A stretch of 24,412 bases of DNA, taken from positions 1 through 24,412 of the IMG/VR virus record IMGVR_UViG_3300040770_000062; one strand, written 5' to 3'. Of the stretch, positions 16,875 through 20,832 are shown piece by piece. A program made the position numbers and the translations under genes. The first letter of the stretch is position 1, and each line of letters starts with the position of its first letter. Below the pieces are notes generated by a model. That model saw only the letters and a program-made list of their open reading frames with translations, was not told where the DNA came from and did no database searches. This stretch comes from a virus.

Positions 16875-16963
16875 AAAAATGCCCCTAATTTCAAGCGGGC
16901 AGGCTTTACTTTTAGGAGCTTTTTTAAAAATCTTAATTGTTAATGAACCTGCCCGAACATTAA
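16875..16963 (-). promoter_or_regulatory. Kissing-loop leader RNA 1 (replication operon)
   Basis: Minus-strand RNA elements: P1 hairpin TTAATG/CATTAA (16963-16958 with 16945-16940), 12-base loop containing GGGCAG; P2 stem GCTCCTAA/TTAGGGGC (16919-16912 with 16888-16881; one G-U); inside it P3, AAGC/GCTT (16906-16903 with 16896-16893), capped by CTGCCC (16902-16897). The P3 loop is exactly complementary to the P1 loop. The P2-P3 internal loop is AAGTA opposite GAAA. A T-rich run follows P2 and the gene starts 20 bases after the stem. Confidence 0.72.
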
Positions 16964-16969
16964 CTGATA

Positions 16970-16977
16970 CAAATATA
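16970..16977 (-). promoter_or_regulatory. -7 box for leader RNA 1
   Basis: TATATTTG on the minus strand followed by TATCAG, then P1 of the leader. The expected start near 16964 places the 5' end of the RNA right at P1. No TTG at canonical spacing. Confidence 0.55.
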
Positions 16978-16983
16978 AGTATT

Positions 16984-17718
16984 TTATTTAAATAAATCAT
17001 TAAAATTTAGATAATTAAATACGTTTTCACACTCTATAAACTCATAATTTTCTTCTGTTATGTGTATTAAAAATATCCTGTTTATTTTGTATTTTTTAAG
17101 CAATTCTTTATAGATAGATAATTGAATACAATAATGGTAATAAGTAGAATCTTGATAAATTTTAAAAAAATCTTTCATGCTTTTTCCATATGAATTTTTA
17201 TCTATTTTTGAGTTTGTTTTAAAATCAATTATGTAAAAATTATCCTTACTATCTTTACATACCATATCTATTTGACCAGCTATAAAATCATTGTAAACTA
17301 TGTATTCAGAAGCAACAGGAATTAATCGTTTAGTTATAAAAAAGTCTTTGATAAACTTAACAGCAATAAGGCTTTTATTAAAAAATTCAATATAGTATTC
17401 TGGTTTCACTTCTGACAATTCAATACTAAACTCTGAATTTATAAATGAATATTTATTATAAAAATAATCCTCAAATATCTTATGTATTGCCGTTCCTATA
17501 TCACATGATTTATTTGCTTTTTCTTTCCATTCATTTAATACTTCTTGTTGTGTTTTATTGTCTCTTTTTGCTATTTTTTTAGAATAAAAATCGCTATCAA
17601 ATTTGTTTTTAAACCTACTTAATAAAGTAGTTACAGATTCAAGTTTTTTTTCTCCTAAAAAATAAGAGTGTGTTTCTGATTCAAAACACACTCTTTTATC
17701 ACTACTGTATTTCTTCAT
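16984..17718 (-). CDS. PD-(D/E)XK nuclease, RecB/Cas4-like
   Basis: A 244-residue nuclease of the RecB-like PD-(D/E)XK superfamily. Visible motifs are GTAIHKIFED (75-84, H79), E138 in ASEYIVY, GQIDMV (148-153, D151), the IIDFKTNS core (163-170; D165 and K167 catalytic) and QLSIYK (199-204). There is no helicase domain and no four-cysteine FeS cluster of the AddB/Cas4 type. The start overlaps the IbrB-like gene by 17 bases, so it is the last gene of the Ibr operon. Such nucleases occur in phages as recombination exonucleases; its coupling to IbrAB is notable. Confidence 0.87.
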   Translation of the reverse strand: MKKYSSDKRVCFESETHSYFLGEKKLESVTTLLSRFKNKFDSDFYSKKIAKRDNKTQQEVLNEWKEKANKSCDIGTAIHKIFEDYFYNKYSFINSEFSIELSEVKPEYYIEFFNKSLIAVKFIKDFFITKRLIPVASEYIVYNDFIAGQIDMVCKDSKDNFYIIDFKTNSKIDKNSYGKSMKDFFKIYQDSTYYHYCIQLSIYKELLKKYKINRIFLIHITEENYEFIECENVFNYLNFNDLFK

Positions 17719-18352
17719 CTTTGTAGGTTTCAGCTTCCCAAGCTTTTGAAAATTCCTTATCAGAAAAAAGTTCTACCAAACCACCTATTTGGCAAAGCCT
17801 TAATACTTCATCAGCATCCATACCTAAATTTTTAGATATTTTAGCGTCGCTCCAATTTCTTTTTTTAAGATCAATAACAATATCGCTCATTGCGTCTATC
17901 TTATGTTTTCCTCTAGCTCTATTGTGTCTTATGGTAGATGCAACTCTATCGTTTATTTTTGTTCTATCTTCATTAATGGTAACTACAGGTAAATAACCGT
18001 GAACTCTTTTTTGAATTTCAGAACACTCTTTACCAACTCTATTTCTGTGAAAACCATCTATAACCTCTCTAGTTTCTAAGTCATCTTCAAGCATTGAAAC
18101 TATAGGCTGTGTGTATCCATCTGATTCAATTGATAGCCTTAAAAGTTCCATTTCTGGAGGAGCAACACTATTTGGGTTGTAATCATTTGCGTGAACGCTA
18201 TCATTTTTAACCCATAGTACACAATCTACAGGCTCGCTTCTCATTGGGCTTATTTCATGTAATTTTATTTTAACACTATTTATAAATCTAATTTTGTTGT
18301 GTAAATCTAAAGCGTCAATTTGTTCTATTAATTCATTCAGTAAATTTTCCAT
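17702..18352 (-). CDS. ParB/Srx-like protein, IbrB-like
   Basis: A 216-residue protein with a ParB/sulfiredoxin-type nuclease or phosphate-binding domain (about 45-145). Motifs include DYNPN (57-61), IESDGYTQPIV (75-85) and the phosphate-binding VIDGFHRNRVG (97-107), followed by STIRHNRARGKHKIDAM. A helix-turn-helix-like C-terminal segment WSDAKISKNLGMDADEVLRL (167-186) follows. Its partner upstream is a PAPS-reductase-like protein, the IbrA-IbrB pair named from E. coli regulators and common in phages. No ParA or centromere is present, so plasmid partition is unlikely. Confidence 0.85.
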   Translation of the reverse strand: MENLLNELIEQIDALDLHNKIRFINSVKIKLHEISPMRSEPVDCVLWVKNDSVHANDYNPNSVAPPEMELLRLSIESDGYTQPIVSMLEDDLETREVIDGFHRNRVGKECSEIQKRVHGYLPVVTINEDRTKINDRVASTIRHNRARGKHKIDAMSDIVIDLKKRNWSDAKISKNLGMDADEVLRLCQIGGLVELFSDKEFSKAWEAETYKDEEIQ

Positions 18353-18354
18353 AA

Positions 18355-19569
18355 TTATAGTTTAAAGTTATTTAATTCTCTTTGTTGTTTTTTTAATTTT
18401 AAATATTTATTGTAAGCATCTGTTTTGTGTTGTGTAAATCCAAGTCCTTTGCACCAGTAATCATTTCTTAAAAGTGATTTGCAAACCCTTCTCCAAGAAG
18501 GAACAACTCTTTCACTCTCTAGTATTGATGGAGCTTGATCTGGTAATCCATCTTGGTAACCTCTATCTTCCCACCATTTTATAAAAGTGTATATTTTATT
18601 TTTGTAGTGCTCAGATGTTACTTCTGGAAGCGTGTTTAATATTAACTCTGAAAAAGATTTCCAAGTGTGATGAGCTGGTTTTGTTATTTTTCCATATCCG
18701 TTTATATTTCCAGTATCTTGAACGTATAAAGCTCCACTATTTGCACCTTCAACCCTTGCCACTACTTTTGCCCATGTTTCAGGTTCTATTAAATGAAATA
18801 AATACAAACCCCTTCTTTGATCATCTCCATAAGGTTGGCAAATTCGTTGCAAGTGTATTGATAAACCTGATTTTTGCATTAAGTCATAAAGTTTGTTATG
18901 TCTTTTATGCTTATTCTTACCGTGATAAGTCCATATATCTTCTGTTTTCCAATCATAAATAGGATACACATTAAAAACATTATCTGTTACTTTAGTAGTC
19001 CATTGTTTATTATTAAAAGTTATTTTTTTATTACTTGCAATAGTTCTAAAACGGTTTAAACTTTCGTCTGCTCTAATTCCAACTAAACAAGCGCAAGTCT
19101 TGCCTTGCGAATACCATTCACCAAATTCAGGTACAAACTCTTCAAACTCCATTCCGTCACGAAAAAAAGGAAAGTAATTAGTATCTGAAATACTAAGTTT
19201 AGGTAAATCTCTAATCCAATCATTTTTTACTTCTGGATCCCAACATTTCCAAAAAGGTTTAAATACACTAACCGCATTTCTTAAATGAATAGGTAAACAA
19301 ACCCAATATAAATCTATGTTATCTTTGTACATTTCAATACACTCAATCATATGATCTATAGTCAATTTATATTGACCTTCTAAGTCGACAATCATTAAGC
19401 CTATTTTTACATTTCTTTTAACCGCTTCATCCATAACTATGTGAAGCATTACCGTACTATCTTTACCTGCTGAAAAAGATAAATATATTTTTTCAAAATT
19501 GTCAAAGGTATATTTTACCCTATCTACAGATGCTTCATAAACGTTTTGTTCTAAATAAATTTTAGGCAT
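18355..19569 (-). CDS. PAPS-reductase-fold protein, IbrA-like
   Basis: A 404-residue ATP-pyrophosphatase (PP-loop) family protein. The PP-motif is SFSAGKDST at 31-39; further conserved blocks are LVGIRADESLNRFRTI (162-177) and VYPIYDWKTEDIW (201-213), with a C-terminal region of the DUF3440/IbrA type (about 250-404). Cys-Ala-Cys at 159-161 precedes the VGIR block. True PAPS reductases are shorter and have a C-terminal ECG motif not seen here, so assimilatory sulfate reduction is unlikely. It overlaps the 126-aa gene by 8 bases and lies 2 bases before the IbrB-like gene. Biochemical role unknown. Confidence 0.88.
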   Translation of the reverse strand: MPKIYLEQNVYEASVDRVKYTFDNFEKIYLSFSAGKDSTVMLHIVMDEAVKRNVKIGLMIVDLEGQYKLTIDHMIECIEMYKDNIDLYWVCLPIHLRNAVSVFKPFWKCWDPEVKNDWIRDLPKLSISDTNYFPFFRDGMEFEEFVPEFGEWYSQGKTCACLVGIRADESLNRFRTIASNKKITFNNKQWTTKVTDNVFNVYPIYDWKTEDIWTYHGKNKHKRHNKLYDLMQKSGLSIHLQRICQPYGDDQRRGLYLFHLIEPETWAKVVARVEGANSGALYVQDTGNINGYGKITKPAHHTWKSFSELILNTLPEVTSEHYKNKIYTFIKWWEDRGYQDGLPDQAPSILESERVVPSWRRVCKSLLRNDYWCKGLGFTQHKTDAYNKYLKLKKQQRELNNFKL

Positions 19570-19942
19570 AATTACTATTTTTTAAATTATTTTCATATTC
19601 TATTATTATTTTTTCGGCTATATCGCAAGATATTTTTTGCCTTTCTTTACTTAAAAACCTCCAATGATTCATTGTTATTTTATATGGTATTTTTGAATAT
19701 AAACAACAAGCAGCCTGACCTAGCCACGCAACCCTGTTTAGTGATATATTACTAAGATTGTGTTCGCATGAATTAATCCATTTTAAAACAACTTGCCTCA
19801 TGTTTAATTCTGTTAACTCTGAACTTTCAAACATTTCAACTACTTTTTTTTCTAAGTTTGTTTTTTCGATTCCTGATATATTATCAAAAAAACCATTTTT
19901 GTAACATTCCCAATTTTCATACCTGTGATAAATTCTATCCAT
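19562..19942 (-). CDS. Ibr-cassette protein, unknown
   Basis: A 126-residue, mostly helical protein with an N-terminal YHRYENWECYKNGFFDN, a central helix RQVVLKWINSCEHNLSNISL, the segment NRVAWLGQAACCLYSKIPYK and a final charged helix. I recall similar short proteins beside IbrA-like genes in phages, with the start HxYExWExxxxGx, but know no function. It is the first gene after leader RNA 2 and overlaps the IbrA-like gene by 8 bases, so it is a tightly coupled component of the cassette. Confidence 0.7.
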   Translation of the reverse strand: MDRIYHRYENWECYKNGFFDNISGIEKTNLEKKVVEMFESSELTELNMRQVVLKWINSCEHNLSNISLNRVAWLGQAACCLYSKIPYKITMNHWRFLSKERQKISCDIAEKIIIEYENNLKNSNYA

Positions 19943-19955
19943 AATTTTTTAAATT

Positions 19956-20048
19956 AAAAAATCCCTATAAAATCTAAAGCCTCTCACCGCTTTGTCATTT
20001 ATAAGGATTGTTTATAATTCCGTTAGTTGGGGTAATTTGAGAGCCAAC
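19956..20048 (-). promoter_or_regulatory. Kissing-loop leader RNA 2 (Ibr operon)
   Basis: Minus-strand RNA elements: P1 GTTGG/CCAAC (20048-20044 with 20030-20026), 13-base loop beginning CTCTCA; P2, 12 bp with one G-U, AATCCTTATAAA/TTTATAGGGATT (20009-19998 with 19971-19960); inside it P3, AAAGC/GCTTT (19993-19989 with 19980-19976), capped by GGTGAGAG. TGAGAG of the P3 loop is exactly complementary to CTCTCA of P1. The internal loop is TGAC opposite AGAT (possible tandem G-A pairs). T-run after P2, then the 126-aa gene start at 19942. Confidence 0.72.
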
Positions 20049-20055
20049 ATTAATA

Positions 20056-20063
20056 CAAATGTA
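20056..20063 (-). promoter_or_regulatory. -7 box for leader RNA 2
   Basis: TACATTTG on the minus strand (TAnnTTTG consensus), followed by TATTAAT and then P1. Predicted start is near 20050, at the base of P1. No TTG at the canonical distance. Confidence 0.5.
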
Positions 20064-20066
20064 ATA

Positions 20067-20138
20067 CTATTTTTTAGATAAAAAACATTTAAGCCAAAAA
20101 TAATGATAATCTTTTAATTCGTTTATGTAGTCTTTCAT
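20067..20138 (-). CDS. Possible 23-aa peptide
   Basis: A short frame MKDYINELKDYHYFWLKCFL ending SKK, between the GIY-YIG gene and leader RNA 2, partly covering the leader promoter. Nothing beyond an ATG and an aromatic-rich sequence supports it; it may be a chance frame. Confidence 0.2.
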   Translation of the reverse strand: MKDYINELKDYHYFWLKCFLSKK

Positions 20139-20183
20139 GGTTAAAATATAAATGGATTAATAGTCTTTTGTTTTTCGTAGTAG

Positions 20184-20729
20184 TTAAATGTATTTAAACA
20201 TTGTATTATTTTTTATACTACCATTTAGTTTAGCTTTAAAACTACTGTATTTTATGTTAGTAGTTTCGCAAGCATCTAATGCGCAATCATAATATATTCC
20301 TGTCTCAAAATTTAAAACAAGTTTAGATAAATGATGTAATCCTCTTTTCTTTCCGAACATTACATTTTTATATCCGTCTTGTTTTCCTTTATTAGATAAT
20401 TTCCATTTTTCTATTTGATCCTTAGATTTATATAGATTTAAAGTTCCTTCACCTCCATCGGTTAAGTTTACTAATGTGCCTCCATCAGGAATTTTTCTTT
20501 TATAAATTGAAATTAAAAAAACTTCTAACTCTTTAGCATATTCTAATGTTAATTCATCAAAAATTATTTCATAATCAAAGCCGTATTTTTTATAAACATT
20601 GTTCCAAAAGTTATTTCTTCCGTGAATAAAACTAGCTCTTTTGTATTTTTTTTGTTTACTAATTCCAATATAAAAAACAATATTTGTTCCTTTTATAAAG
20701 TGCCTATAAACATAATAATTATTAATCAT
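20184..20729 (-). CDS. GIY-YIG homing endonuclease
   Basis: A 181-residue free-standing homing endonuclease of the Seg type. The catalytic domain has YVYRHFIKGTNIVFYIGIS (6-24, GIY-YIG strands), K/R-rich KYKRASFIHGRNNFW with R31, a glutamate in YAKELEVFLI (E67 or E69) and LVNLTDGGEGTLN (87-98). The C-terminal part has a NUMOD3-like segment with SNKGKQDG and FGKKRG, and a NUMOD1-like DNA-binding repeat, LVLNFETGIYYDCALDACE ... KAKLNGSIKNNTMFKYI. It interrupts the early region between the phosphoesterase and the Ibr cassette, as an invading selfish gene would, and has its own promoter and leader. Confidence 0.88.
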   Translation of the reverse strand: MINNYYVYRHFIKGTNIVFYIGISKQKKYKRASFIHGRNNFWNNVYKKYGFDYEIIFDELTLEYAKELEVFLISIYKRKIPDGGTLVNLTDGGEGTLNLYKSKDQIEKWKLSNKGKQDGYKNVMFGKKRGLHHLSKLVLNFETGIYYDCALDACETTNIKYSSFKAKLNGSIKNNTMFKYI

Positions 20730-20734
20730 AATAT

Positions 20735-20813
20735 AAAAAAGATATGCTTTCGGTGAGGGAACCTACTAACATATCTTTAAATTAATATTTTAAAATATAG
20801 TCCCTCAACTACA
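20735..20813 (-). promoter_or_regulatory. Kissing-loop leader RNA 3 (GIY-YIG gene)
   Basis: Minus-strand RNA elements: P1 TGTAGT/ACTATA with one G-U (20813-20808 with 20801-20796), loop TGAGGG; P2 perfect 9 bp AAAGATATG/CATATCTTT (20778-20770 with 20746-20738); inside it P3, GGT/ACC (20763-20761 with 20754-20752), capped by TCCCTC. The P1 and P3 loops are complementary over 5 bases (up to 7 if closing pairs open). The internal loop is TTAGTA opposite GAAAG. A six-base T-run follows P2, and the ATG is 8 bases downstream. Confidence 0.72.
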
Positions 20814-20816
20814 TTG

Positions 20817-20832
20817 TAAATATACAAATAAA
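20817..20832 (-). promoter_or_regulatory. Promoter-like region for leader RNA 3 (weak)
   Basis: The minus strand reads TTTATTTGTATATTTA. TTTATTTG and TATATTTA each differ by one base from TAnnTTTG. The former gives a start at a distance from P1 comparable with the other two leaders. Confidence 0.35.

Follow-up and report, generated by a model that had tools for sequence, protein, structure and literature searches.

Three leaders in one virus record

The window, that is, the whole stretch of DNA analysed here, is a virus record of 24,412 bases related to Flavobacterium phage 11b, in which nearly all genes in the list of open reading frames (ORFs) lie on the minus strand. Three minus-strand leaders, A, B and C (Table 1), had been picked out in a preliminary description, and all three were recovered at the positions given there with the same order of parts: a promoter box, a hairpin (P1), a linker, a longer stem (P2) around an internal loop and a small stem (P3), a U-run and the start codon. 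In what follows, K1 and K2 denote the complementary segments of the P1 and P3 loops, respectively, and K the kissing helix formed between both. The complementarity claimed for every copy is present, over 8 bp in A and 6 bp in both B and C; the length first given was correct for B and one or two pairs too short for C (5 bp) and A (6 bp). The P2 lengths of 8, 12 and 9 bp agree with the sequence, the P2 of leader A enclosing 23 nt. Canonical -7 boxes precede A and B as described, the gap of 5 nt between box and P1 in A being the usual spacing over the 51 elements introduced below; the box ahead of C, TATATTTA, is weak and not canonical, which makes C the weakest copy in the window. No Shine-Dalgarno (SD) sequence is visible before the three genes that follow.

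Table 1. Features of the three minus-strand leaders of the window.
Leader	Feature	Coordinates	Strand	Basis
A	Bacteroidota -7 promoter box TATATTTG	16970..16977	-	sequence
A	hairpin P1 GTTAATG/CATTAAC	16939..16964 (arms 16964-16958 / 16945-16939)	-	sequence
A	K1 CGGGCAGG in P1 loop	16955-16948	-	sequence
A	terminator-like P2 GCTCCTAA/TTAGGGGC	16881..16919 (arms 16919-16912 / 16888-16881)	-	sequence + fold
A	internal loop AAGTA/GAAA, short P3	P3 arms 16906-16904 / 16895-16893	-	sequence + fold
A	K2 CCTGCCCG in P3 loop	16903-16896	-	pairs with K1 CGGGCAGG over 8 bp
A	U-run ATTTTT	16875..16880	-	sequence
A	ATG of DUF6291 gene	16861	-	sequence; DUF6291 match, E 2e-19
B	-7 box TACATTTG, canonical	20056..20063	-	sequence
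B	hairpin P1 GTTGG/CCAAC	20026..20048	-	sequence
B	K1 CTCTCA	20043-20038	-	sequence
B	P2, 12 bp, AATCCTTATAAA/TTTATAGGGATT	19960..20009 (arms 20009-19998 / 19971-19960)	-	sequence + fold
B	tandem G.A internal loop TGAC/AGAT inside P2		-	sequence + fold
B	P3 AAAGC/GCTTT	19993-19989 / 19980-19976	-	sequence + fold
B	K2 TGAGAG	19986-19981	-	sequence + fold
B	U-run	19956..19959	-	sequence
B	ATG of 126-aa ORF	19942	-	sequence, ORF list
C	weak box TATATTTA	20824-20817	-	sequence
C	hairpin P1 ATGTAGT/ACTATAT	20795..20814	-	sequence; descriptor score 38
C	K1 TGAGGG = P1 loop	20807-20802	-	sequence
C	P2, 9 bp, AAAGATATG/CATATCTTT	20738..20778 (arms 20778-20770 / 20746-20738)	-	sequence + fold
C	internal loop AGTA/GAAA and 2-bp P3 inside P2		-	sequence + fold
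C	K2 CCCTCA	20759-20754	-	pairs with K1 TGAGGG over 6 bp
C	U-run end	20735..20737	-	sequence
C	ATG of 181-aa ORF	20729	-	sequence, ORF list

A descriptor scan of the window returned exactly leaders A, B and C as its best minus-strand matches, with scores of 47, 39 and 38. Three such leaders in 24 kb are well beyond chance, since among 20 dinucleotide shuffles of the window a single score reached at least 38 (a 44) and all others stayed at or below 37. Leader B is additionally matched by the covariance model R1 (57.5 bits, E 2e-9). Its operon (19942-17702, minus strand) encodes the 126-aa protein, a DUF3440/PAPS reductase (IbrA-like) and a ParB-like protein in the position of IbrB, with close relatives in phages from many phyla and on contigs binned as Heimdall- and Lokiarchaeota. 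The 181-aa ORF behind leader C has no Pfam match, and a viral search using this gene found no relatives.

An orthologue of leader A is present in phage 11b at 33634. Its P1 (GTTATTA/TAATAAC) keeps the pairing with changed bases and its P2 reads GCTCATCA/TGATGGGC in place of GCTCCTAA/TTAGGGGC, while the loops, the internal loop and the U-run are kept. At L016:468, it is K that has changed on both sides, from GGGCAG/CTGCCC to GTGCAG/CTGCAC. The window also holds promoter-to-terminator leaders that lack a kissing pair, at 9876-9786 and near 10630-10510 and 10490-10415 (all minus strand); some of these units have no gene directly behind them, the last looks like a terminated RNA of about 65 nt, and a similar unit lies near 30326-30407 in phage 11b.

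Distribution among phages and hosts

Further homologues with covarying loops exist both in phages and in IMG/VR contigs. Sequenced isolates bearing the element are elemoA_7-9A, hemulen6-1 (two copies), Harreka_1, FCOV-F14, phi13:2 (two copies) and 11b, and dozens of IMG/VR contigs carry the same architecture upstream of operons. In a survey of 277 loci (3.44 Mb), a sample centred on a few genes, a descriptor score of at least 38 combined with a promoter box near P1 (matches to the consensus TAnnTTNG) was reached 65 times, against 3 times in matched shuffles. Removal of redundancy and of evident false matches left 51 elements; the distinct loop pairs, counted before the evident false matches were dropped, number 47.

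Under strict filters, R1 found a single match in 399 genomes of the family to which Myroides indicus belongs; it lies on a Flavobacteriaceae contig of 3.5 kb and is followed by a replication-type gene. A DNA pattern of one subtype found none in 395 genomes of the phylum. Both results suggest a phage rather than a host RNA. Contigs of non-Bacteroidota genomes showed no excess over shuffles. The only copies that look convincing there are two in L074 (1169 and 3559) and one in L357 (4357), and being so few they are only suggestive of the element's presence in phages that use SD sequences. Both contigs keep the U-run ahead of their SD. In all three copies a further hairpin separates P1 from P2, and L074 also has sigma70-type promoters.

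Anatomy of the element

Over the 51 elements, P1 mostly follows the box by 2-7 nt, in line with the proposal that the RNA starts at or near P1, and 76-101 nt separate the start of P1 from the end of P2. The loops pair over 6-8 bp, and K has a GC content of 60% in contigs of 31% GC. Within the helices, non-Watson-Crick pairs are G-U in 44 cases and A-C in 7, a bias to be expected if selection acts on the RNA of this strand rather than on DNA. Even where a U-run was not demanded, 38 of 38 intergenic matches have at least 5 T in the 8 positions at the end of P2. Over the 51 elements, T is enriched after P2 (6.1 of 8) more strongly than A is before it (3.7 of 8). In 33 of 37 cases an ATG lies within 60 nt of the end of P2 (spacing 7-49 nt), usually within 30 nt; this placement and the constancy of the U-run lend indirect, sequence-level support to the attenuator that had been among the readings first offered.

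Conservation of sequence is confined to the internal loops and the linker. Inspection shows at least three recurrent types of internal loop: UGAN/NGAU, a tandem G.A, as in leader B; AGUA/GAAA, the loop-E consensus, as in leaders A and C; and GGV/AAA. More than 20 unrelated families are represented among the first genes behind the elements, and the device is thus modular. In 12 of 13 contigs with at least two elements, each loop pairs with its own partner over 6-10 nt and never over more than 4 nt with those of the other elements. L022 alone departs from this privacy: its elements at 2939 and 14304 share one loop pair and precede HNH-like genes of one type, and they are a recent duplication. 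A third partner for K is found in the contigs 51 times against 43.9 expected, and the lack of any excess suggests that K works in cis.

Mean folding energies are -17.8 kcal/mol for P2/P3 and -10.2 kcal/mol for the K duplex. Alternative pairing of P1 plus linker with either arm of P2 has a mean energy equal to that of permuted pairs, and thus gives no sign of a classical two-state switch. A leader-peptide attenuator is not supported: an AUG opening at least 6 codons is present in 29 of 51 leaders, and the frame is not kept, the interiors of the pattern being 17, 18, 19 or 20 nt long. The lengths of P1, linker and P2 covary weakly, an observation set aside as evidence because the calling of P1 biases lengths. 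Variant leaders with a small hairpin added in the linker occur at L018 8398, L030 6280 and L100 37571; in L018 and L030 the U-run of P2 is itself paired (GAGAAACCC/GGGTTTTCTC). In many elements unrelated to one another (L171, L209, L364 and others), the linker carries a recurring motif resembling AARRNATTWTTRA immediately ahead of P2.

Kissing pairs in sets chosen blind to the loops

A first and very loose set of 610 candidates, chosen without regard to K, gave only a small excess of loop pairing at 7-8 bp. An intergenic, ORF-linked set therefore took its place. In this second set, leaders were picked by box, P1, terminator hairpin and following ORF, with loop pairing left unused; 16 of 20 nonetheless have a GC-containing loop pairing of at least 6 bp, where permutation of partners gives a mean of 1.2 and a maximum of 5. 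Three of the four failures (window B, L064 and L059) trace to a wrong P1 call, the loop pair being present on inspection. A DNA pattern describing the inner P2 and the internal loop of one subtype, with the loops entered as N, was scanned over IMG/VR and matched 65 contigs, 39 of them distinct; the loop pair is present in 35 of the 39, compared with 5.9 by permutation, and the remaining 4 matches are coding sequence. The corresponding pattern for the AGTA/GAAA subtype gave two matches, both chance matches in coding sequence. R1, too, is free of the pseudoknot, and the loops of its match in the host contig pair over 9 bp (GCCTTCGAC/GTCGAAGGC).

Thirteen of the free-loop pattern matches make up alignment A4, which represents the subtype of leader B and supports the early claim that the covarying kissing loops are a real RNA architecture. 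In A4, 94.2% of cells are paired and 20 of 28 pairs show two-sided changes, a result reached by 0 of 500 shuffles; sliding the partners out of register lowers pairing to 29-46%. The kissing helix alone is paired in 96.2% of cells, with two-sided changes in 7 of its 8 pairs. The pattern left P1, K, P3 and the outer P2 free, whereas the inner five pairs of P2 are uninformative, being fixed by the search; the lower pairing of P1, 77%, reflects rows that are not in register.

A probable terminator closed by its own leader

Comparison of the sequences shows the fold, the kissing pairing, RNA-level selection, private loops, the U-run and the position of these leaders. They form a class of cis-acting 5' leader RNA of Bacteroidota phages that is most likely an attenuator with a self-kissed terminator, a reading to which we give an even chance. 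Transcription would begin at P1; about 90 nt on, the AU-rich P2 hairpin would fold, capped by the small internal loop and P3, whose GC-rich loop would kiss the loop of P1. P2 and the U-run most likely constitute an intrinsic terminator ahead of the first start codon, whose folding the kiss would couple to the hairpin at the 5' end of the same RNA. Polymerases would thus stop at P2 in a set proportion, the remainder reading into the operon. The distance of 7-49 nt to the ATG is too short for a second promoter and leader, which leaves passage through P2 as the only way into the gene, and the succession of promoter, P1, terminator and gene within about 110 nt implies the logic of an attenuator. 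The kiss probably helps P2 to fold, given that it is compatible with P2/P3, adds about 10 kcal/mol to about 18 and is the most GC-rich part of the structure. Termination at P2, a kiss that favours the terminator and regulated read-through during infection are what we infer from this arrangement.

Attenuation alone leaves the need for private loops without explanation. The kissing loop may be a private key, in that each operon's own loop pair would set transcription read-through in cis, a tentative extension that we consider somewhat less probable than attenuation itself.

P2 could also be a mere stable 5' UTR hairpin before a U-rich translation start. The leader would then be a stabiliser or insulator in which P1, at the 5' end, and the kissed P2/P3 shield phage mRNA from decay and keep the start region open, the U-run serving as a U-rich landing site for ribosomes and not as part of a terminator. 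The start of P1 at the 5' end, the start codon close behind P2, the many unrelated genes served and the lack of a visible SD before the three window genes all suit this explanation, which is unlikely but deserves to be taken seriously. However, it leaves the constant U-run unexplained: T after P2 exceeds A before it, a run right after the stem is the classical layout of a terminator, and L074 and L357 retain the run even where an SD follows.

The narrow length range and the structure at both ends raise the question as to whether the product is rather a stable, compact, end-protected phage small RNA of about 90 nt that acts in trans, read-through giving the mRNA. Such an RNA might be a decoy for an RNase or RNA polymerase, or a dual small and messenger RNA like IsrK of Gifsy-1, a promoter-terminator unit that yields both an sRNA and an mRNA (PMC4825925). 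We hold this to be improbable. Nearly every copy stands directly before a gene, sequence is not conserved except in internal loops and linker, and complementary third sites in the phage contig do not exceed expectation; a purely free-standing stable RNA is further weakened by a start codon too close for a second promoter.

Still less credible is a leader of processive antitermination, in which the kissed fold would bind RNA polymerase, as put RNA does, and carry it past P2 and later terminators. The elements are indeed promoter-proximal, free in sequence and placed at operons of unrelated genes, and their conserved internal loops could be a contact site; however, the leader is not known to act on polymerase, and we know of no put-like RNA built around its own terminator. 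Chance, or repeats at the DNA level, can be dismissed: AT-rich genomes do hold many hairpins, and shuffled sequence gives about 3 box-bearing matches per 3.4 Mb, but the K-blind tests, the covariation and the G-U bias refute it.

Relation to known RNAs

Rfam 15 gave no match at gathering score in the window or in 18 element-bearing loci, and at E<=5 only off-target chance matches, none on the leaders, in keeping with the initial impression that no named family has this form. No description was found in the literature on kissing loops, attenuators, structured RNAs and Bacteroidetes or Flavobacterium phages, as covered mostly by papers outside subscription. The class is likely to escape ordinary searches by homology or nested structure, its contact being a kissing helix and its sequence not being conserved.

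In the lambda pR'-tR' leader, a phage promoter is followed by a short leader and a terminator, in a system that depends on binding of Q to DNA. The put RNA of HK022 is a promoter-proximal structured RNA that controls read-through and lacks a terminator of its own closed by a kissing loop. The phage leaders resemble both in layout. In RNAs of the purine-riboswitch type, two hairpin loops of one RNA kiss and lock the fold ahead of the expression platform, the hairpins branching from a three-way junction whose ligand core is conserved. By comparison, the phage leaders have no outer junction stem, and their internal loop is of at least three types.

The nearest working analogue is the attenuator of the pT181 type. 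The pT181 repC leader combines a 5' sensing hairpin with an intrinsic terminator, loop-loop kissing with an antisense RNA sets the outcome, and orthogonal loop variants work without cross-talk (PMC4878617). Both systems thus have a leader hairpin, a terminator before the gene, kissing loops and orthogonal variants. In pT181, however, an antisense RNA acting in trans supplies the partner, and the 5' hairpin contains an antiterminator sequence that captures an arm of the terminator, whereas the phage leaders carry the partner in the same RNA and show no such pairing above permutation. They lie outside the pT181 family, and we rate them as most likely leader attenuators in kind whose body is a new RNA class. 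Gifsy-1 IsrK is similar in its phage promoter, short RNA, terminator and read-through into an operon; it differs in acting in trans on a known target, and the abstract of its report mentions no kissing closure of its terminator (PMC4825925). Candidate structured RNAs from the human microbiome, in the main text of their report, include terminator-containing ones in Bacteroidetes, some near phage genes; that text gives them no pseudoknot or kissing pairing, which sets the phage leaders apart by description, although overlap is possible (PMC8040213).

Implications

The timing of genes in Bacteroidota phages, which are common in aquatic and gut habitats, is little known, and a recurring RNA control element whose tertiary contact can be predicted exactly offers a direct, mutable handle on it. 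If each loop pair is indeed a private key, no copy would be able to lock the terminator of another, be it in the same genome or in a co-infecting phage, and the device would range across the phages of Bacteroidota and into some phages whose hosts use SD sequences (L074, L357). With the class come dozens of natural kissing loops that are orthogonal to one another, and similar hidden RNA classes may exist in other phages.
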